A stretch of 64,000 nt of DNA from Thermosipho ferrireducens (lineage in GTDB: Bacteria; Thermotogota; Thermotogae; Thermotogales; Fervidobacteriaceae), in assembly GCF_017358165.1 (NCBI RefSeq), contig NZ_CP071446.1:186001-250000 (forward strand). Reading direction: 5' to 3'. A program made the translations under genes and the position numbers. This document shows positions 30,866-55,556 of the stretch, piece by piece; the first letter of the stretch is position 1; each line of letters starts with the position of its first letter. The notes below the pieces were generated by a model. It saw only the letters and a list, made by a program, of their open reading frames with translations, ran no database searches and had not been told where the DNA came from.

Positions 30866-31182
30866 ACCTTGCAAGATATTTCACCATTTCACTCCTCAAG
30901 ACAGGCCTTACTAATTTTGCTAATTATAAGATTCCTAACCCTTCGGGTTCGGAATGACATAAATGGGGGAACAAATCTTGCCGATCTCGCTAACACTCGC
31001 TATTCTTTGTCATCCCGAGAAATGCAATGACGAGGGATCTTTCTTTTTCGTCATCCTGAGGAACGAAGTGACAAAGGATCTTATTTTAATAACTTTTTCT
31101 AACTCTCGCTAATCTTGCCAACACTCGCCAATCCTCGCTGTTCTTTGTCATCCTGAGGAGCAGGAAGGCGAAGGATCTTATT
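30866..31182. repeat. composite intergenic repeat cluster R4
   Basis: The gap between the peroxiredoxin gene and tRNA-Asn contains the GACAGGCCTTACTAAT module, the CCCTTCGGGTTCGGAATGAC unit shared with R3, and several GTCATCC(C/T)GAG...AAGGATCTT units (31009-31083, 31147-31181). Two CTCGCTAAT/CTTGCCAAC 9-mer runs are also present. No gene is seen. Confidence 0.8.
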
Positions 31183-31304: not shown

Positions 31305-31380
31305 TCCGGCGTAGCTCAATCGGCAGAGCGGGTGGCTGTTAACCACTAGGTTGGGGGTTCGAGTCCCTCCGCCGGAGCCA
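31305..31380 (+). tRNA. tRNA-Asn (GTT)
   Basis: A complete cloverleaf: acceptor TCCGGCG/CGCCGGA, the D arm with AGCTCAATCGGCAGAGC, an anticodon loop with GTT at 31338-31340, and a T arm with GGTTCGAGTCC. Discriminator G 31377 and an encoded CCA at 31378-31380 complete it. Confidence 0.97.
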
Positions 31381-31388
31381 GATGCAAG

Positions 31389-31417
31389 AAACGTCCAGCT
31401 ATGCTGGACGTTTTTTT
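31389..31417 (+). terminator. terminator of tRNA-Asn; left copy of the hairpin flanking the cmr cassette
   Basis: AACGTCCAGC and GCTGGACGTT form a ten-base-pair stem with a TAT loop, then seven T. The same stem sequence recurs after the last cmr gene (40483-40508). Confidence 0.92.
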
Positions 31418-31662
31418 ATGATACATTATAAATTCCTCCATTATATTCTCTCCATACTATATTTTCTCCTAATATTAAAAAAATAATCATATCAAAAATA
31501 GCTCAAAGTTATACAAATTTCTTTCGATAAATTTTTCAAAAATGTAAAATAAGCGAAAAAGAAATTTGGCTTAAAAAATCCATCAATGTGAGATAAACAT
31601 AAAAACATATGGTGTTTGATAGAAAAATCAGATCGCGTTATCTCTGAGTAACAAATAATTAA

Positions 31663-31690
31663 TTGTTTTGAAAAGTAACTGATGTATAAT
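31663..31690 (+). promoter_or_regulatory. candidate promoter reading through the decayed array into the cmr operon
   Basis: TTGTTT (31663-31668) and TATAAT (31685-31690) are separated by 16 bases. No terminator is seen between it and cmr1, so it may act as array leader promoter and operon promoter. The rest of 31420-31690 is featureless AT-rich sequence. Confidence 0.55.
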
Positions 31691-31756
31691 TAAAAAAGGC
31701 ACCTTGAAAGGTAATAAAAAGATAAAAAATGTAACTAATCATATGGCTTTTTTAAC

Positions 31757-32054
31757 ATTTAAACCGTTCCTATAAAGAATTGAAACAATTCTTCATTTAT
31801 TTCTTTTATTTTTGGAAAACGTTATCTCTTATCGTGCTTAAAATAAATTGAAATATGTATAAAAGATATTTTTATATGTATTACAAAAAGCTTTTTCACA
31901 GCATCTATGAAGAATTTAAATACATTAAATATTCTTTGGTTTAGCACGTTTTCACCTCCTTTCTATTTTTATTAATGAATCAAGTTCTTATAAATGGGCA
32001 TTATCGCCTTTTTCTAAAATGGAGTTCTGCCACGTCACCTATGAGGAATTGAAA
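31757..32054 (+). CRISPR. decayed CRISPR array upstream of cmr1
   Basis: Four degenerate 30-base repeats share a 3' end like CCTATGAGGAATTGAAAC. They are A 31757-31786 (ends CCTATAAAGAATTGAAAC), B 31825-31854 (TTATCGTGCTTA, ending AATTGAAAT), C 31892-31921 (CATCTATGAAGAATTTAAAT) and D 32025-32054 (CACCTATGAGGAATTGAAAC). Against the repeat type recalled from thermophiles each matches about 20-23 of 30. Spacers A-B and B-C are 38 and 37 bases. C to D is 103 bases, exactly room for one lost repeat (faint trace at 31959-31988) and two spacers. Another faint copy lies at about 31690-31720, one period before A. The regular period of about 67 bases is the main evidence. Confidence 0.75.
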
Positions 32055-32086
32055 CTTAACTGATATAAGAAGGAGATGGTGATGTA

Positions 32087-33145
32087 ATGCAGGAAATAAC
32101 CGTGAAATTCAGAACAATAACTCCGCTCTGGACGGGAAACGCGTGGGGGAAATGTGACGAAATAAAACCAGCTGCTTTGATAGGGAGTTTAAGATTCTGG
32201 TTTGAAGTTATTTGCTATTTTTCCGGTGTTGTAAGTGGAGAGGATTTTGATACTAAACTTGGTAGGTTTGAAAGAGAAGTTGATAGTAAAAAATTCAAAG
32301 GATATCTAAGTAGCAATGGAAATTCTTTCAAAGACAAGATAAAGGGATTGTTAAACCAAAACATTCCATTACCTTCGATAATATTTGGGACGACAAATTG
32401 GGAAAGTTTAATAAAAATTAAACATATTGAACCTATCGGTAATTATTGTTTTGGAAATAAGCTAAACATCCCTAAAAAGATATGTATTAACAAAAATGGC
32501 ACAAATAATATAAAGGAAAATCAAGAATGTCCAAATAGAAGCAACAATGGATGGTCAGTATTTTATTTTAATAACCCGTATTTCTATGGACAATTTAGAG
32601 TTAAATTTTTAGTGAATGAAAGTATTTTAAATGAGATATTTTACCCACTACTAAACTTTATGGATAAATATGGATACTGGGGTGGAAAATGGAACATTGG
32701 ATATGGAAGATTAAAAATAGAAAAAGTAGAATTTAAAAATAAAGGACAATGGTACGAAAGAGAGATTTCTGGAGAATATGAGTTTAAATTTAGTAATTTG
32801 CATAATATGTTAAAAGACAAAAAGTTCATTAATTTAATAACCAATAGTCCTAATTTTGACAATTTAATTACTAAAAAAACATCATTATATATATTGGAGA
32901 ATCAATTTTCAAAAAATGATTTTAAAAGTGTAATAAAGGAACTATTAAAAATTAAATCTAAAAAGAGGGGAATTTTTAGAAATGACAAAGAATTTAGACA
33001 TAAAGTTTTTGGAAAAACAGGAAGAGAAGATTATCTTCCGCAAGGCTCAAAAATACTTCCTTACATCTATGAAGAAAATGGGCAATATCACGGTGGATTT
33101 CTATCTATCGCCGGATTGCTAAATTTACAGGAGGAGACAAAATGA
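32087..33145 (+). CDS. cmr1: type III CRISPR RAMP protein Cmr1
   Basis: The 352-residue product is a Cas7-group RAMP subunit of the Cmr effector complex, usually at the head of the complex opposite Cas10. The N-terminus carries the Cmr1 signature (ITPLWTGNAWGKCDEIKPAA followed by LIGSLRFWFEV). A central glycine-rich YWGGKWNIGYGRLKI matches the family's second RAMP motif. The start has AAGGAGATGG eight bases upstream, and the last repeat of the decayed array ends 32 bases before the ATG. It overlaps cmr6 by four bases. Confidence 0.9.
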   Translation: MQEITVKFRTITPLWTGNAWGKCDEIKPAALIGSLRFWFEVICYFSGVVSGEDFDTKLGRFEREVDSKKFKGYLSSNGNSFKDKIKGLLNQNIPLPSIIFGTTNWESLIKIKHIEPIGNYCFGNKLNIPKKICINKNGTNNIKENQECPNRSNNGWSVFYFNNPYFYGQFRVKFLVNESILNEIFYPLLNFMDKYGYWGGKWNIGYGRLKIEKVEFKNKGQWYEREISGEYEFKFSNLHNMLKDKKFINLITNSPNFDNLITKKTSLYILENQFSKNDFKSVIKELLKIKSKKRGIFRNDKEFRHKVFGKTGREDYLPQGSKILPYIYEENGQYHGGFLSIAGLLNLQEETK

Positions 33146-34419
33146 AACATTTTGAATCTTTGATAGAAATTAATCCTGAGAAAGTTAAAGATTTAAATGA
33201 ATATATTGCATATTGTAAGTATTTTTTCAAATATAAAAGCGAAGAAAAAATAAAAGGATATCTAAGCGGGCAAGATATAGATAAAGACAAATTCGATAAT
33301 TTGTGCAAGGATTTCCCTTTTTTGAAACATGACTTTGACAAAGATGTGAATGGTGGAAAATTTAATGTAGATTTGTTTAAATACTTAAAAAAGAACAAAG
33401 CTAATAATACATTTAAAGATTTTCCTCTAAGTTGGCTGAAAGATAAAATTATAAAAGAAGATAAATACCTCCAAATTGATAATAAAACAATAAATAAGCT
33501 CAAAAAAATCTCCGGGATCTTAGAATCATCAGAAATAAAAAAATATTCAAGTAGCCTTCCTAAATACTCATTTATAATCTGGGTGAAAATAGAATTAACT
33601 GCGCCATATTTTTCTAAAGACGATGATGAATTTTATATCATCCAGAATCCCATATTAAAAGAAACTAATTTTAAAATTCCAATACTCCGAGGTTCGGGAT
33701 TGAAAGGGAGTATGGCAAACGCATTTAAAAATCCATCTGAAAGCGAAGAAAATTCAGGCAATCGGAAAATAATGATAGAGAGTTTTTTGAGAATATTTGG
33801 CACAGGCTCTGAGAGCATTAAATGTATTGAAAATTATCTAAAGAAAGGTAAGAAATTTGAAGAATTTAAAAAGAAGATCGTTGAATTCATACTATTTGAA
33901 TTAGGGTTAGATGTTGATAAAAAAGATATAGAGACAATAAATAAAGCAAAAAGCGATAAAGAACTCTTTGAAGAATTTTTAAAAGATAAAATTTCCGAGA
34001 AGCTTGAAAAATCACAGAATCTGCCAATAGAATTTCAAACTCATAAAGGAAGAGCTATATTTTATCCTATTTACTTTGACAGGCTCTCATTAGAAATCAT
34101 AAATCCGCATGACAGAATAAAAAGAGCAGGTAAAAATCCTATTCACTATGAAATAGTACCAGAAGGCACAAAAGGTATTTTACAAATTATCTACGTACCT
34201 TATGATGCAGTTTTGAAAAAAAATGAAGAAATAGAAAAAGAGGTATGTAAAGACTTAAAACATTTATGTGAAGCTGTTGAAAAACTTGCAACAAACGGTA
34301 TAGGTGCTAAAACAAAACTTGGCTGGGGAAGTTTTGAGTTGAAACAAAAAATATACTGTGTAAATGCCGATCTGAAAATAGAAAATGTTCCAGAGGGGTG
34401 GAAAGAATGCCAGAGTTGA
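33142..34419 (+). CDS. cmr6: type III CRISPR RAMP protein Cmr6
   Basis: The 425-residue Cas7-group RAMP protein has a long, Lys-rich N-terminal extension (about 1-130). The core motifs follow: PILRGSGLKGSMANAF (G-rich loop after the first strands), EIINPHDRIKRAGKNPIHYE with VPEGTKG, and the terminal GIGAKTKLGWGSFEL. The Asp-Pro-His-like NPH block and GAKTxLGxG are Cmr6 features. It overlaps cmr1 and cas10, implying translational coupling. Composition is visibly more AT-rich than the housekeeping genes nearby. Confidence 0.82.
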   Translation: MKHFESLIEINPEKVKDLNEYIAYCKYFFKYKSEEKIKGYLSGQDIDKDKFDNLCKDFPFLKHDFDKDVNGGKFNVDLFKYLKKNKANNTFKDFPLSWLKDKIIKEDKYLQIDNKTINKLKKISGILESSEIKKYSSSLPKYSFIIWVKIELTAPYFSKDDDEFYIIQNPILKETNFKIPILRGSGLKGSMANAFKNPSESEENSGNRKIMIESFLRIFGTGSESIKCIENYLKKGKKFEEFKKKIVEFILFELGLDVDKKDIETINKAKSDKELFEEFLKDKISEKLEKSQNLPIEFQTHKGRAIFYPIYFDRLSLEIINPHDRIKRAGKNPIHYEIVPEGTKGILQIIYVPYDAVLKKNEEIEKEVCKDLKHLCEAVEKLATNGIGAKTKLGWGSFELKQKIYCVNADLKIENVPEGWKECQS

Positions 34420-37400
34420 ATTTGAAAAATTTAGAAAAATATAAGGATGAAATATTAAAAGCAGAGATTGGCACTTTGCTCTTTAATTTAGGTAAGACAC
34501 ACATTGGTTTTTGGAGAGAAAAAGATGAACAACGTTATTTTCAAGTTCATGAAAGTGCTTTTGAAGATATTTTTGGCTATAAACCTTTTGGAAGTTACAA
34601 AAAATATTATGAAAAAGAAAAAGATAATGATAAAAATAAGGATAAGAACAAAAAACTTCCTTTTGAATGGGAATTAGAAAAATATGGTTTAAAAGATTTT
34701 ATAGAAAATCAGGAAGTTAAATTTCCTTTCAAGATTGACAATGAAAATGGAAGTATAAATTGGGTGGAATTTTTTAAAGGCAATAGTTCGAATACTGAAT
34801 TCATGAAAAGAATATTTTTTGGAGGTTGTGAAAACATAAACTCTGGTATAGATAAAGGGGCTCCTAAAGTACAGATGACCCCACCCTTATGGTTGTCAAA
34901 TGCCTTTGGGAGTTTTAAAAGAGAACTGAATGAAAAAGATTATGATAAAAGAAGGGGATGTTTTTACCAGAAGTTCTATGATTTTTTAAAAAAGAAAAAT
35001 TATTTCAATGAACCAGATTGGATAGAGATAAGAAAATTCGTGTTTAAAGAAATAAAAACGTGGTATTCTGAACTGCTCAGCGACAGTCGTTTCCCGGTTA
35101 ATGATGTTTCTCTATGGGATCAGGCTTATATGACAGCATCTATGTTTAAAGCTGTTTTAGCTCAATTGGTGTTAGATGAAACACTGAAAAATAAAAATAT
35201 TGAAAATCACAATTATTTTAAAAAGCCCTCAGAGATAAAGTGGAGAATATTAGGAATACAGTATGACAAACTTGGTTTAGCTGAAAAAGGCTATAAACCC
35301 GCGCATATTCAGTGGTACAGGCAAACAGCGAAAGAAATAGACGATGAAATAAAAAAACTCTTAGAATATGAATACCCAATAGGAAATGAGATCTATAGAG
35401 ATGAAACAGGGATATATTTTATAGTTGGAGAAAGTTTGGGAAAAGATAAAGGAGATCTTGCAAAGTTACATTCTGACTTAGATGAAATTAAGTGTAAAAT
35501 TTTGAATATTTTTAAAGAAAAAACAGATGATGAATTTTACCCGGCAATAATTTTAACAAAAGCCTCCAGAGGATTAATGAATTTAGGGTATTTAATTCAG
35601 AAAGCAAAAGAGAATTTTTTGAAACCTGAAACAATTAAATTTAATATAAATTTCGCAAACAGTCCTGATAATAATGATAATAATAAAGGTGATGCGATAA
35701 ACATCTGTCCTGTATGCCAGCAGAGGTTGATTTATGAAGTTGACAAAAAAAGAAATATAAAACCGACAGTGTGTGAAACCTGTTATGAAAGAACGTATAG
35801 TAAAAGGGTTAAAGAATGGAAGGAAAACTTAAAAAATGGTTCAAAAAACAATGAAACCATATGGCTTGATCAAATAAAAGACAAAAACAACAGAATTGCT
35901 CTGGTTACTTTGAAATTTGAAACAGAGGACTGGCTGAATGGAAATTTATTGAATAGTTTGTTGACTAATAAAATTGATAGCAAACTTTACAATGATATAA
36001 AAAAGAATTGTATTGAATTTATAAAGATTATTTCAGGCAAAAACTTTATATCACACAACATTGTAATTCTTATTAAAAATTTGAAAAATATAAACTCAAG
36101 CGAGTATGGATGTTTGATGTCGCTTGAAAGTTATTTAGAAGAAATCAATAAAACATTTACAAAATTCAGAGATAATGAAATATCAGTTTTTCTGACTAAA
36201 GATAAAAATAATAAACTGCTCTTTGCTAAGGATTATAATAAGAATAAGAAAAAATTAAGAAATCTTCAAGATGATATTAATTTAGGTGGCGGTCATGTAA
36301 TCAAAAAAACGGTAGATTGGGCAAAAGATGAAAAAATTAAAACTTTAAAAAGTAATATACAAAAACTCTTACATGATTATTTTTCTGCGCTGGAGTTTAT
36401 AGGATTCCTTAAGACATACTCAGAAGACAGCATAAAGGGACATTACAAAAATTCTTTTAATGATTTTATCAGACAAATATTTTTTGACTCGATTATAGGT
36501 ACAAAATGGGAAGAGTTTATTAAAAGCAAATCATTATGCAAAAAAATAGACTGGAGCACTAAAAAGATAGAATGGGATAAATTGACAGACGAAGATATAG
36601 ATTTACTGGCAACAACAATATTACAGCTCCTTCTTCGAAAAAACCCTTCACCTGCAAGATTGAGAAGAATCTGGGAGAGTACACTGGAGTTTATGGAAGA
36701 TATTGAAAAGAATATAATAAACTTACTCGAGATTCCAGTTTGGGAGAGAAAAGGTCTGGTACTGAAAGGAAAAATTGATAAAGGTAACATAAAACAAACA
36801 GGAGAAGAATTAGAATGCAAAAATATTTTGTTCTGGGCTGAGCCTGTGAACGACTCAAAGAACGACAGGGTTAAACTATATTTAATCAGTTCCGTAAGAG
36901 ACTTTTTAAATGAATTCGGTAATACAAAAGTAAAAAAATTATTGAAAAATGCGCAGGAAAATCAAGAAGAATTAGCCGGGATTCTCAAAAGTCCTGAAAA
37001 AGTTAAGGAGAATATTGAGTTTAAACCAGAGCAAGATAGCAATTCACTTAAATTTAAGCAATATGACAATCCAGATAAAAATTACAAAATAAGCGAGATT
37101 GATATAGAAAGTGTTTATAGCTATAAACCATATTTTTCAATCATAGACCCAACACCTGTGTCGTGGCAGTTTGCAATTCCAGCAGAATACGTTCCTAAAT
37201 TATTGGAAAAAGTTGAAGAAGAGTATAGTAAAAGATTTAAATATGTTTATGGAAAGCTACCGCTTCATGTTGGTGTTATAGTACAAAACTATAAAAGCCC
37301 ACTTTATATAGGCGTGAAAGCTTTACGTAAAATCAGAAGAGATACGTCAAACATAGATGAGCTTTATAAAGAGATTGCGGTTTCAAAATTTTGCATTAAA

Positions 37401-38045
37401 CAAAAGAAAAAATTATCTTTTGCAAATTCAGAAGAAAAAGCCAACAGCACAGAAAACTATTATTCTCTTTACTGGAGCAACTCAAACAATAAAGACTACG
37501 AGTTTTATATAAAACCAGATGATAAATGGAAAAAATGGCTCAGCACATTAGACAAATTCAAGAATAATAGTAAAGTTAGCATAATTCCTAACACGTTTGA
37601 CTTTGAATTTTTAGATTCAAATGCCAGAAGAAATGATATAGAGTATTATAAAGGCAAAAGAATTTTACCAATTAAGTCAAATCGACCTTATGATACATCA
37701 GATTGGGAAAAATTTTTAAAATTTAGAGAAATCTTTAAAAATGCAAAAAACAGGTTCAATACAATGGTGAGCAATATATATAAATACTTAGATGACTGGA
37801 ATGAACAAAATAAAGAGTCAATCGTGAAATTGTTAATTTCAGGCCTTGTAAACATACTTGAGCTTAACAAGAACACAAATAAAGAGATACTAAAAGAGTT
37901 ATGCGATATATTTGAGTTAGATGAATGTGAAAACTCAGATGCTTTTGCAGAAGCACTCAAAAGACTTTCTCCAGAAAAAGTAAAAGAAAAAATGCTGTTA
38001 TTTTTAGATATGTATGATTTTTGGCATAGAGCATTGAAAGAGTAA
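34407..38045 (+). CDS. cas10: Cas10-like large subunit (Csx11/III-C-like) lacking HD and GGDD motifs
   Basis: The 1212-residue protein is longer than typical Cmr2. The N-terminal region that normally carries the HD nuclease pair reads LLFNLGKTH, so both HD residues are replaced. A zinc-ribbon CPVC...CETC lies at about 434-456. The palm region is recognisable from FAIPAEYVPKLLEKVEEEY and YGKLPLHVGVIVQNYKSPLY, but the position of GGDD reads TPVS (about residues 914-917). No GGDD occurs elsewhere. Neither single-stranded DNase nor cyclic oligoadenylate synthesis is therefore expected. This is the described hallmark of subtype III-C (MTH326-like). ATG 34407 follows GAGGGGTGG; a GTG at 34398 lies in that site. 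Confidence 0.82.
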   Translation: MPELNLKNLEKYKDEILKAEIGTLLFNLGKTHIGFWREKDEQRYFQVHESAFEDIFGYKPFGSYKKYYEKEKDNDKNKDKNKKLPFEWELEKYGLKDFIENQEVKFPFKIDNENGSINWVEFFKGNSSNTEFMKRIFFGGCENINSGIDKGAPKVQMTPPLWLSNAFGSFKRELNEKDYDKRRGCFYQKFYDFLKKKNYFNEPDWIEIRKFVFKEIKTWYSELLSDSRFPVNDVSLWDQAYMTASMFKAVLAQLVLDETLKNKNIENHNYFKKPSEIKWRILGIQYDKLGLAEKGYKPAHIQWYRQTAKEIDDEIKKLLEYEYPIGNEIYRDETGIYFIVGESLGKDKGDLAKLHSDLDEIKCKILNIFKEKTDDEFYPAIILTKASRGLMNLGYLIQKAKENFLKPETIKFNINFANSPDNNDNNKGDAINICPVCQQRLIYEVDKKRNIKPTVCETCYERTYSKRVKEWKENLKNGSKNNETIWLDQIKDKNNRIALVTLKFETEDWLNGNLLNSLLTNKIDSKLYNDIKKNCIEFIKIISGKNFISHNIVILIKNLKNINSSEYGCLMSLESYLEEINKTFTKFRDNEISVFLTKDKNNKLLFAKDYNKNKKKLRNLQDDINLGGGHVIKKTVDWAKDEKIKTLKSNIQKLLHDYFSALEFIGFLKTYSEDSIKGHYKNSFNDFIRQIFFDSIIGTKWEEFIKSKSLCKKIDWSTKKIEWDKLTDEDIDLLATTILQLLLRKNPSPARLRRIWESTLEFMEDIEKNIINLLEIPVWERKGLVLKGKIDKGNIKQTGEELECKNILFWAEPVNDSKNDRVKLYLISSVRDFLNEFGNTKVKKLLKNAQENQEELAGILKSPEKVKENIEFKPEQDSNSLKFKQYDNPDKNYKISEIDIESVYSYKPYFSIIDPTPVSWQFAIPAEYVPKLLEKVEEEYSKRFKYVYGKLPLHVGVIVQNYKSPLYIGVKALRKIRRDTSNIDELYKEIAVSKFCIKQKKKLSFANSEEKANSTENYYSLYWSNSNNKDYEFYIKPDDKWKKWLSTLDKFKNNSKVSIIPNTFDFEFLDSNARRNDIEYYKGKRILPIKSNRPYDTSDWEKFLKFREIFKNAKNRFNTMVSNIYKYLDDWNEQNKESIVKLLISGLVNILELNKNTNKEILKELCDIFELDECENSDAFAEALKRLSPEKVKEKMLLFLDMYDFWHRALKE

Positions 38046-38096
38046 TTTAAATCTATTATGCATGTAAACAATAATTTTTTAAACGAGGTGATAAAC

Positions 38097-39227
38097 ATGT
38101 CAGAAAATCAAAAAGTTAAGAACAATTTGGTAAAGGAACTAAAAATTTTCGCTTTGACTATGGACCCCGTGTACATAGGAACAGGTGGTTATACAATAGG
38201 CAGAGTAGATAACACAATCGTAAGAGAACCCATAACACGTATTCCCAAGATTCCAGGATCCAGTCTGGCTGGTGTCTGGAGGTATTATGTGGCTTTAAAA
38301 TTACATGAATTTTTGAAAGAAGAATATAGGATAAGCAAGCGCAAAAGAAAAGATAAAGATATAGAAGAAATATTTTCTCAGAAGAAAAAATGGGTTTTAT
38401 TTGAAGGAAATAGGTATATAGGAATAAAATGTGCAGGGCAGGACGATAAACCACAATTGAATTTCGATGACAGTCAATTTGAACAAAAAGCCCATTGTGG
38501 TCACTGTATTGTATGCAAAAGCTTTGGATTTTCTAAAAAGGATTTGAGCTGGCAGGGACTTTTATTCTTTTCAGACTTAAACATTTTTCTGTTTCCGGTA
38601 CATACAATGTATGGGGTTAAATGGATTACCACCGCTTCAAAACTAAAAGAGCTGGGTATACAAACAGATAGTCCAGGTAAAGAAAAAGTTTTGGCAAATG
38701 GAGTCGATAATCAGCATATCAACTTAGGATGGCTTTATTTAGAAATAGAAAGAGAGCATAATATTGACTGTGAGTTATTAAATAAAAATTTTGGTTCCTT
38801 GGTTCAATCCGAAGATCAATCCAAAAGCGTTTTTCAAGATGAAGACATTATTGTTGTTCCTGAAAACTTAATTTCACAAATAATAAATTCAAACCTTGAA
38901 GTGCGTACATCTGTATCGATAGATCCTATTACAGGAGCAGCAAAAGAAGGAGCGCTTTTCACATCAGAAGCTATCCCAAGAGGTACGGTGCTGTATGGAA
39001 ATATTAGAATATTTGATAAATCCCAGTTCAATGGGATTAACGATAAATTAAAAGATTTACCAGCTAAAGAAGATATAGAAGAAGCGTTAAAAGATTCAAA
39101 GCATTTCTTTGAAACCTTAGGAATTGGAGGAATGACTACAAGAGGCTTTGGAAGAATCAAGATTGAATTAAGCGATAGTAATGATGATAGTGAAACTGAA
39201 GGGGATAGCAAAGGTGGTGATTCTTAA
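38097..39227 (+). CDS. cmr4: type III CRISPR RAMP backbone protein Cmr4 (Cas7)
   Basis: The 376-residue backbone subunit that lines crRNA and cuts target RNA at six-base intervals. Motifs are YIGTGGYTIGRVDNTIVRE, IPKIPGSSLAGVWRYYVALK, a cysteine cluster HCGHCIVCKSFG, FFSDLNIFLFPVHTMYGVKW, TSVSIDPITGAAKEGALF and GIGGMTTRGFGRIKI. The aspartate in GRVDNTI sits where the catalytic Asp of characterised Cmr4 lies, so RNA cleavage may be retained. ATG 38097 follows GAGGTG; the frame runs 13 codons further upstream without a good site. It is joined to cmr5 by TAATG. Confidence 0.88.
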   Translation: MSENQKVKNNLVKELKIFALTMDPVYIGTGGYTIGRVDNTIVREPITRIPKIPGSSLAGVWRYYVALKLHEFLKEEYRISKRKRKDKDIEEIFSQKKKWVLFEGNRYIGIKCAGQDDKPQLNFDDSQFEQKAHCGHCIVCKSFGFSKKDLSWQGLLFFSDLNIFLFPVHTMYGVKWITTASKLKELGIQTDSPGKEKVLANGVDNQHINLGWLYLEIEREHNIDCELLNKNFGSLVQSEDQSKSVFQDEDIIVVPENLISQIINSNLEVRTSVSIDPITGAAKEGALFTSEAIPRGTVLYGNIRIFDKSQFNGINDKLKDLPAKEDIEEALKDSKHFFETLGIGGMTTRGFGRIKIELSDSNDDSETEGDSKGGDS

Positions 39228-39604
39228 TGGAAAACCTTGAGTATAAAATTAATGAAGTAGCTTGGAAAATCGTTGAAAAGATAAAAGAAGACAAAAAGAA
39301 ATATAAAAATGAAATTGATAAAGCTCTGGGAGTGCTTACTAATAACGGAGTATATGCTTACTGGGTATATTGTAAATCTAAGGGAATAGAGAAAGTTTTC
39401 ATAGAAGAGGTCAGGGAACTTATGAAATATACTTCCGTTAATCTTAAAGATGAAAATGGGAAGAATAAAAATGAAGAATATGAGAAATACTTCAGAGAAC
39501 TTTCAAAAAGTCTAAAGGATCTATTGTTTTTTAAAGAAATCTTAGAAAAAACTCTTATTCTGGTTAGATACCATGCAAAAGCTTTAGAAGATGGTGATGA
39601 GTAA
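39227..39604 (+). CDS. cmr5: type III CRISPR small subunit Cmr5 (Cas11)
   Basis: The 125-residue all-helical protein forms the minor filament of the Cmr complex. It fits the Cmr5 pattern in length, charge and the ALGVLTNNGVYAYWVYCKSKG helix pair. Its start shares a TAATG with the cmr4 stop, and its stop shares another TAATG with the last RAMP gene. Such small subunits diverge quickly, so position supports the call as much as sequence. Confidence 0.85.
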   Translation: MENLEYKINEVAWKIVEKIKEDKKKYKNEIDKALGVLTNNGVYAYWVYCKSKGIEKVFIEEVRELMKYTSVNLKDENGKNKNEEYEKYFRELSKSLKDLLFFKEILEKTLILVRYHAKALEDGDE

Positions 39605-40449
39605 TGAGTAAAAAATGGTATAAATTGGTTATAAATCAAATACAGCCAATACATCTGGGAAAGGCTGTTTATGGAGTTTTAGGAGAAACCAGAATCTTTA
39701 TACCAGGTCAGACTGTGTGGGGAGCACTTGCAAAAGCTTATTGTATAAATAAAAAACTACCGTTTGAAAAGAATAAAAATTTATTTGAAGAAATAACCTG
39801 TTTTTATCCAGCTTTTGATAATCAATCTTTTTTAAAACCACGTTTTTCAGGTGGTGAATTTTATCTGGGAGATTTGCCAGAACGGGAGTTTAAACTCTTA
39901 TTTGCGGACACTTTTGTCTCCACAGCTGTGCTACCAGAAACAAAGTCAGCTAAGGATGAGTCGCTACACGAAATAGAGTATATTCTTCCAAGACACAAAA
40001 AGGAACTTGAAAGCACCGAACTTTACAAAAAACTAACACAATTGGGTTATAAAAATAGCAACTTAAAATGGGTTGGTTTAATAAAGTTAGAGGAAAATAT
40101 CAAAAAAGAAATAGAAGGAATGGAAATATATGTAGGTGGAGATGTCAGATATGGATTTGGTTTGATGAAAATAACTAAGATCACAGAGACATATAAAAGC
40201 ATGGAAGAAGATTTCAATATTATTTCTGAAATAAAAAAAGGAAAAATAAATAATGCAGATTTTCCAAGCGAAAATATAACACTATTAAATTTCTTCTGTA
40301 TTGACAATACCGATGTAAAGATTGAAGGTAAAATTGAAATTATTATAGAAAAAGACTTTTATGATAACAACAGACAAAACATCGAAGGTAAAATTGTGCA
40401 TGCAGGCTATTATGCAGTACCTGGTAGTAAAATTTTAAAAAATATCTAA
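39604..40449 (+). CDS. RAMP protein, probable Cmr3/Cas5 equivalent
   Basis: The 281-residue RAMP-superfamily protein opens with KLVINQIQPIHLGKAVYG, then TRIFIPGQTVWGALAKAYC. This is a G-rich RAMP loop reminiscent of Cmr3/Cas5, which caps the crRNA 5' handle. GGDVRYGFGLMKI near residue 190 is the second glycine motif. Since cmr1, 2, 4, 5 and 6 are all accounted for, this gene most probably fills the Cmr3 role. It lacks the usual Cmr3 opening (PLFFRDGRPF-type), so the assignment is by elimination. A terminator follows. Confidence 0.6.
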   Translation: MSKKWYKLVINQIQPIHLGKAVYGVLGETRIFIPGQTVWGALAKAYCINKKLPFEKNKNLFEEITCFYPAFDNQSFLKPRFSGGEFYLGDLPEREFKLLFADTFVSTAVLPETKSAKDESLHEIEYILPRHKKELESTELYKKLTQLGYKNSNLKWVGLIKLEENIKKEIEGMEIYVGGDVRYGFGLMKITKITETYKSMEEDFNIISEIKKGKINNADFPSENITLLNFFCIDNTDVKIEGKIEIIIEKDFYDNNRQNIEGKIVHAGYYAVPGSKILKNI

Positions 40450-45699: not shown

Positions 45700-46133
45700 T
45701 TTCGCTAACATCACCAAATTAAGATTCCTCGTCACTACGTTCCTCGGAATGACAAAGAGGTAAGATGTCATACTGAGCGTAGCGGAGGATATTTTTTGCC
45801 AATCTCGCCAACTCTTGCTAACCTCGCTAGCCTCGCTAATTATAAGATTCCTCGTCGCATACGCTCCTCGGAATGACATAGATGGTTGATTTCTCGCTTT
45901 CTTGCTCCTTAGAATGACATTTGCCTTCTTTTGTCATCCTGAGCGCAGCGAAGAATATGTCATCCCGAGGAACGAAGTAACGAGGGGGATGTCATCCTGA
46001 GGAGCGAAAGCGACGAAGGGGATGTCATCCCGAGGAATGTAATGACGAGGGATCTTATTTTTCTAACTCTCGCTAACTCTCGCCACCTTTGCAAGTTCTT
46101 TCATCGTTTCACTCCTCAGGACAGGTCCTGCCA
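45700..46133. repeat. composite intergenic repeat cluster R6
   Basis: A 500-base gap with no real gene. Units in both orientations are at 45723, 45766, 45848, 45932, 45960, 45989 and 46023. There is a 9-mer run CTCGCCAAC/CTTGCTAAC/CTCGCTAGC near 45802-45840, and the CTCAGGACAGGTCCTGCCA module at 46115-46133 abuts a candidate promoter. Confidence 0.82.
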
Positions 46134-55291: not shown

Positions 55292-55556
55292 AACCCTCGC
55301 AAGATCCTTTATCACTATGTTCATCAAGACAAACCTTGCCGATTATAAGATTCATCGCCTTCACGCTCCTCGGAATGACATTTTCTTTTTTTGTCATCCT
55401 GAGCGTAGCGAAGGATCTTGTTTTTTACCAACCTCGCTAACTCTCACTGTTTTTTGTCATTCCGAACGAATGTGAGGAATCTTATTCTTTTACCAATCTC
55501 GCCAACCTTCGCTAAATACAAGATTCCTCAATGACACCTTTTTCATGTCATCCCAA
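55292..55556. repeat. composite intergenic repeat cluster R7
   Basis: Units at 55357-55380 (CTCCTCGGAATGACA), 55392-55420 (GTCATCCTGAGCGTAGCGAA), 55457-55482 (GTCATTCCGAACGAATGTGA) and decayed copies to 55556, with short 9-mer runs. The next sequence (55568 on) is an IS remnant, apparently inserted into the cluster. Confidence 0.78.

Follow-up and report, generated by a model that had tools for sequence, protein, structure and literature searches.

A degenerate CRISPR array remnant and its leader upstream of a type III-B cmr operon in Thermosipho ferrireducens

Type III CRISPR effectors are able to use crRNAs that originate at other loci. Degraded and vestigial CRISPR loci are already known: in Escherichia and Salmonella, CRISPR loci undergoing degradation have been described whose leaders remain after the system has degraded (PMC2886076), and Haloquadratum walsbyi DSM 16790 has a CRISPR locus that is cited as vestigial in PMC3404096. 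The array studied here adds a well-resolved example to this ordinary class, and a single small feature of it, the repeat that we designate D, stands unexplained. It resembles the Escherichia and Salmonella loci in being a CRISPR in degradation with a remaining leader; those loci, however, display total or partial deletions (PMC2886076), whereas in the present case point changes account for most of the erosion of the array, and the effector genes have been retained. The Haloquadratum locus is likewise vestigial and has a counterpart elsewhere, but it is archaeal and its counterpart lies in a sister strain (PMC3404096).

The analysed window comprises 64,000 nt, corresponding to positions 186001-250000 of a single-contig genome of 1.98 Mb, and at 31757-32055 it contains four degenerate copies of R1 (GTTTTTACCGTACCTATGAGGAATTGAAAC), the genome's own CRISPR repeat. 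To our main reading we assign a probability of roughly nine in ten: this segment is the remnant of a short host R1-class array of at least four repeats, with the leader on its left, which once read towards the cmr genes, was no longer renewed and drifted neutrally, being dispensable through crRNA supply in trans. The array is plainly a decayed one, as its repeats and leader are homologous to those of an intact R1 array at 973 kb, none of its repeats is intact, its changes are biased towards AT and its leader dyad is damaged. The features of this segment and of its upstream side are the following:

31305-31380, plus strand: tRNA-Asn (gtt), upstream neighbour, found with ARAGORN
31386-31416, 3' of tRNA-Asn: inverted repeat and T run, probable terminator
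31457-31756, plus strand: CRISPR leader (31708-31756 certain; weaker to the left of about 31700)
31570-31616, plus strand: degenerate dyad of the leader, TCCATCAAT...TTTGATAGA; two of its nine pairs are broken
31757-31786, plus strand: repeat A, leader-proximal, matching R1 at 24/30 positions
31787-31824, plus strand: former spacer 1, 38 nt, 18% G+C
31825-31854, plus strand: repeat B, R1 match 19/30
31855-31891, plus strand: former spacer 2, 37 nt, 16% G+C
31892-31921, plus strand: repeat C, R1 match 22/30
31922-32025, plus strand: C-D interval, 104 nt, two periods; best repeat match 13/30, none recognisable
32026-32055, plus strand: repeat D, R1 match 22/30; 3' 19 nt (32037-32055) identical, first 11 nt at chance level

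Repeats homologous to a CRISPR repeat of the genome, regular spacing and a leader at the correct end, which together define a decayed array, were all found. The A-B, B-C and C-D spacings are 68, 67 and 134 nt, the last being twice 67, and those of the intact array are 65-70 nt. An earlier note had proposed four degenerate 30-nt repeats in this segment, and its positions for A, B and C were exact (31757, 31825 and 31892), while D begins at 32026 instead of 32025; similarly, its first two spacings were confirmed, and the third measures 134 nt rather than 133. Its placing of D two periods after C is numerically right, but nothing repeat-like is left between them, and the faint copies that it reported at about 31690 (12/30) and 31959 (13/30) both lie at chance level. 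Taken together, A-D fit R1 better than R2, R3 or the R4 repeat of relatives, and the segment CCTATGAGGAATTGAAAC of D is an exact match to the 973-kb array.

The four best non-overlapping R1 matches within 31690-32086 sum to 87, a score attained by none of 3000 dinucleotide shuffles (mean 59.3, sd 2.3, maximum 70) and by none of 3000 permuted-repeat controls (maximum 68). The region is AT-rich, and a 19/30 match, as good as that of B alone, also occurs elsewhere in the window, both of which would suit a merely fortuitous likeness of A-D to the repeat; against these controls, and with the leader homology as independent evidence, we regard such a coincidence as having a negligible probability. 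The objection foreseen in the earlier note, that A-D might prove unrelated to the repeats of the genome, does not hold either, the R1 match being far above the shuffled controls. Elsewhere in the genome a single solitary R1-like site was detected, at 1381 kb within an apparent protein-coding frame, which approximates the chance expectation.

In a genome-wide blastn search, the leader together with repeat A was 81% identical to the 973-kb R1 array over 31708-31788 (E 1e-13); without the repeat, the identity of the two leaders was 85% over 46 nt, the leader-proximal 50 nt or so being the best preserved part. The distal part retains a weak similarity to the 973-kb leader that exceeds the shuffles (score 142, versus 99 +/- 11 with a maximum of 138). 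The homology continues unbroken into A, and since the leader, by its orientation and homology, adjoins this repeat, A was the first of the array and only leader lies to its left. The leader was therefore correctly placed on the left in the earlier note; the additional repeat claimed at 31690-31720, on the other hand, aligns with leader and not with repeat, and the array is shorter on this side than had been claimed.

The functional counterpart of the leader dyad, TCWGTCGAT...ATCGACWGA (9 bp), displays perfect pairing in 8 leaders from 4 species of the family, and its conservation suggests that it may be bound in the course of adaptation or regulation. The gap between its arms is about 26 nt, and between species an A/T swap is seen at one pair (L031, L066, L067, L090-L094); a related pair, TGTCAA...TTGACA, is present in the leader of Persephonella. 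As for the dyad of the window, two matched G-C to A-T swaps were considered as compensatory change under selection, yet two pairs are broken, and selection is not claimed because AT-biased mutation makes such a coincidence fairly likely (about 0.1 by our own rough estimate).

The preservation of the leader-proximal 50 nt might also indicate that the eroded leader still provides the cmr operon with its promoter, the array having been exapted as a promoter region, and the terminator-like hairpin 3' of the tRNA gene means that cmr probably needs a promoter of its own. No sigma-70-type promoter above shuffle level was found in the leader, however, its dyad is damaged, and a promoter might equally well lie between C and D, so that we consider this role of the leader rather unlikely.

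The pattern of changes points to neutral decay. Repeats A-C differ from R1 at 25 positions, of which 16 are GC to AT and 5 AT to GC changes, though only 11 positions of R1 are G or C. No two of A-D are identical, and their divergence from R1 (20-37%) departs from the near-identity that characterizes a functional array; the former spacers contain 16-18% G+C, while those of the intact array average 35%. Changes towards AT and a broken dyad are what would be expected of unselected sequence in an AT-rich genome, and they fit the erosion in place that the earlier note had envisaged. Two observations speak against this reading: the mismatches of D are clustered, which does not suggest uniform erosion, and the C-D slot is without a repeat.

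The intact R1 array at 973 kb is akin to the window array in repeat class, leader and spacer length (37-38 nt in the window, 35-40 nt at 973 kb), and differs from it in its 12 identical repeats and intact leader dyad; no cas genes were found among the neighbouring proteins scanned. A second repeat, R2 (GTTTGCATATTACCTATGAGGGATTGAAAC), forms an array at 1924 kb, and arrays of R3 lie at 812, 926, 942 and 948 kb. The 1924-kb array (L032) switches repeat type along its length, with R2 on the leader side and R1-type sequence in its three oldest repeats, of which the final one is degenerate. Two cas6 genes are located elsewhere in the genome, and a Cas6 is encoded at 1935 kb. We infer that renewal of the local array ceased and was followed by neutral drift, and that the Cmr effector would be supplied in trans with crRNAs from the intact R1/R2 arrays, processed by one or other of the two Cas6 proteins. 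Because crRNAs can come from these arrays, the genome would have been able to do without the local one and yet retain the effector genes. It may be that no R1-class array is renewed any longer, since a frameshift has divided the type I-B cas1 next to the R1/R2 array into two frames (minus strand, 1927842-1928683 of the genome, G000; L065:15701-16740). The other cas1 gene, at 939 kb, is intact.

The operon that follows the array comprises six genes, all with open frames:

32087-33145, plus strand: cmr1, first effector gene (TIGR01894, PF03787)
33142-34419, plus strand: Cmr6-like RAMP gene (TIGR01898 below cut-off; PF03787)
34398-38045, plus strand: csx11, Cas10-type large subunit, 1215 aa (TIGR02682, 618 bits)
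38058-39227, plus strand: cmr4 (TIGR02580, 112 bits)
39227-39604, plus strand: cmr5-like small subunit (weak TIGR01881 / PF09701)
39604-40449, plus strand: sixth operon gene, weak RAMP match (PF03787, E 0.0046)

Matches above cut-off to TIGR01894, TIGR02580 and TIGR02682 identify it as a type III-B effector operon of the Csx11 variant. In the Cmr1 tree, the window protein groups with those of Clostridia, Aquificota, Nitrospirota and others (support 100/98), apart from three members of the family; because it falls outside the same-family species, acquisition of the csx11-type cmr operon (32087-40449) by horizontal transfer is suggested by the phylogeny.

The three family members (G004, G011 and G010), which belong to other genera, carry co-directional arrays that lead directly into cmr1. 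These comprise 9, 11 and at least 3 near-identical repeats, respectively, and the distance from the terminal repeat to the cmr1 start is roughly 33-95 nt. As in the window, these arrays are co-directional, end before cmr1 and have ATTGAAAC-type repeats, and the leaders compared belong to the same leader family; unlike the window, their near-identical repeats are of other sequences, and their Cmr1 proteins are of another clade and about 40% identical. The earlier note had suggested that related strains might preserve the array intact. Array-cmr1 arrangements do exist in relatives, but with a Cmr1 of a different clade, and these loci are therefore analogues of the window locus and not the same locus before its decay; as an undecayed ancestor they are ruled out by the Cmr1 tree (100/98). 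Given the similar arrangement beside different Cmr1 clades, the array-cmr1 order either has more than one origin or outlasted an exchange of the cmr genes. Within the clade of the window Cmr1, no array reading into cmr1 was found; one Persephonella locus of this clade has an array with a repeat matching R1 at 29/30 positions that points away, and a 252-aa gene that stops shortly before cmr1 begins is a candidate cas6 by its C-terminal glycine-rich motif.

Repeat D, whose 3' end lies 31 nt upstream of the cmr1 start codon, departs from the rest of the array in the distribution of its changes. All 8 of its mismatches fall within the first 11 nt (P 2.8e-5 under random placement, post hoc), and none is found in the last 19 nt, whereas A-C have lost 25% of those positions (P 0.005 for none of 19, also post hoc). 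The simplest reading of D is that a deletion or an insertion left a scar at 32036/32037. More specifically, D could be a 19-nt fragment at a deletion or insertion junction, for instance one formed when the cmr operon arrived by horizontal transfer and became linked to the array. This would refine the decayed-array reading, A-C remaining an array. The sharp boundary, with chance-level similarity on its left and perfect identity on its right, the repeat-free slot between C and D, and the grouping of Cmr1 with other phyla rather than with the Cmr1 of the family are in line with such an event. On the other side, D is in register with C, for which chance would account about one time in six by our own estimate, and searches for a second copy of the flank found none, the C-D interval having no convincing copy elsewhere in the genome; we therefore put the junction forward tentatively, as a possibility somewhat short of even odds.

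The intact 3' 19 nt could alternatively have been retained because Cas6 recognises them within the 5' leader of the cmr mRNA. Cas6 would cut 8 nt from the 3' end of D, at GGA|AUUGAAAC, and leave AUUGAAAC at the mRNA end; cmr expression would then depend on the level of Cas6 or crRNA, and the capacity for crRNA processing would control a type III effector. These 19 nt contain a possible CCU-AUG-AGG mini-hairpin and the 8-nt tag, in the repeat that stands nearest to the cmr1 ATG and in a genome that has cas6, while A-C lost about a quarter of the corresponding positions. This element is not conserved, however: the terminal repeats of the three same-family species lie at the varying distances from cmr1 given above and that of G010 is degenerate, no such repeat directly precedes cmr1 in the clade of the window Cmr1, and the mRNA start does not fold more stably than shuffled sequence (z -0.64). 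A retained Cas6 site is accordingly quite improbable in our view. A regulatory RNA fold at the cmr1 start was also considered and rejected, as pairing between the 5' half of D and the ribosome-binding region gave this same z value and a longer stretch gave z -0.89. No conserved solitary repeat of the CreR or Cas-regulating RNA type was seen in the relatives compared, and a literature search for cas mRNA leaders cleaved by Cas6, or for co-transcription of an array with cmr, found nothing relevant.

With its decayed array, the locus illustrates how an array can erode past identity-based repeat finders, which would probably miss it, while the adjoining effector genes stay open, in keeping with the idea that crRNAs produced at other places in the genome can sustain type III effectors. 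Moreover, an aged repeat and leader pair together with its intact paralogue provides a means to measure the erosion of CRISPR repeats and leaders. Other repeats also occur in the window: intergenic dispersed repeats (GTCATCCYGAGGAACGAAGTGAC...) and CTCGCTAAC-type tandem units are found at 31000-31180, 45957-46051 and 55387-55506.
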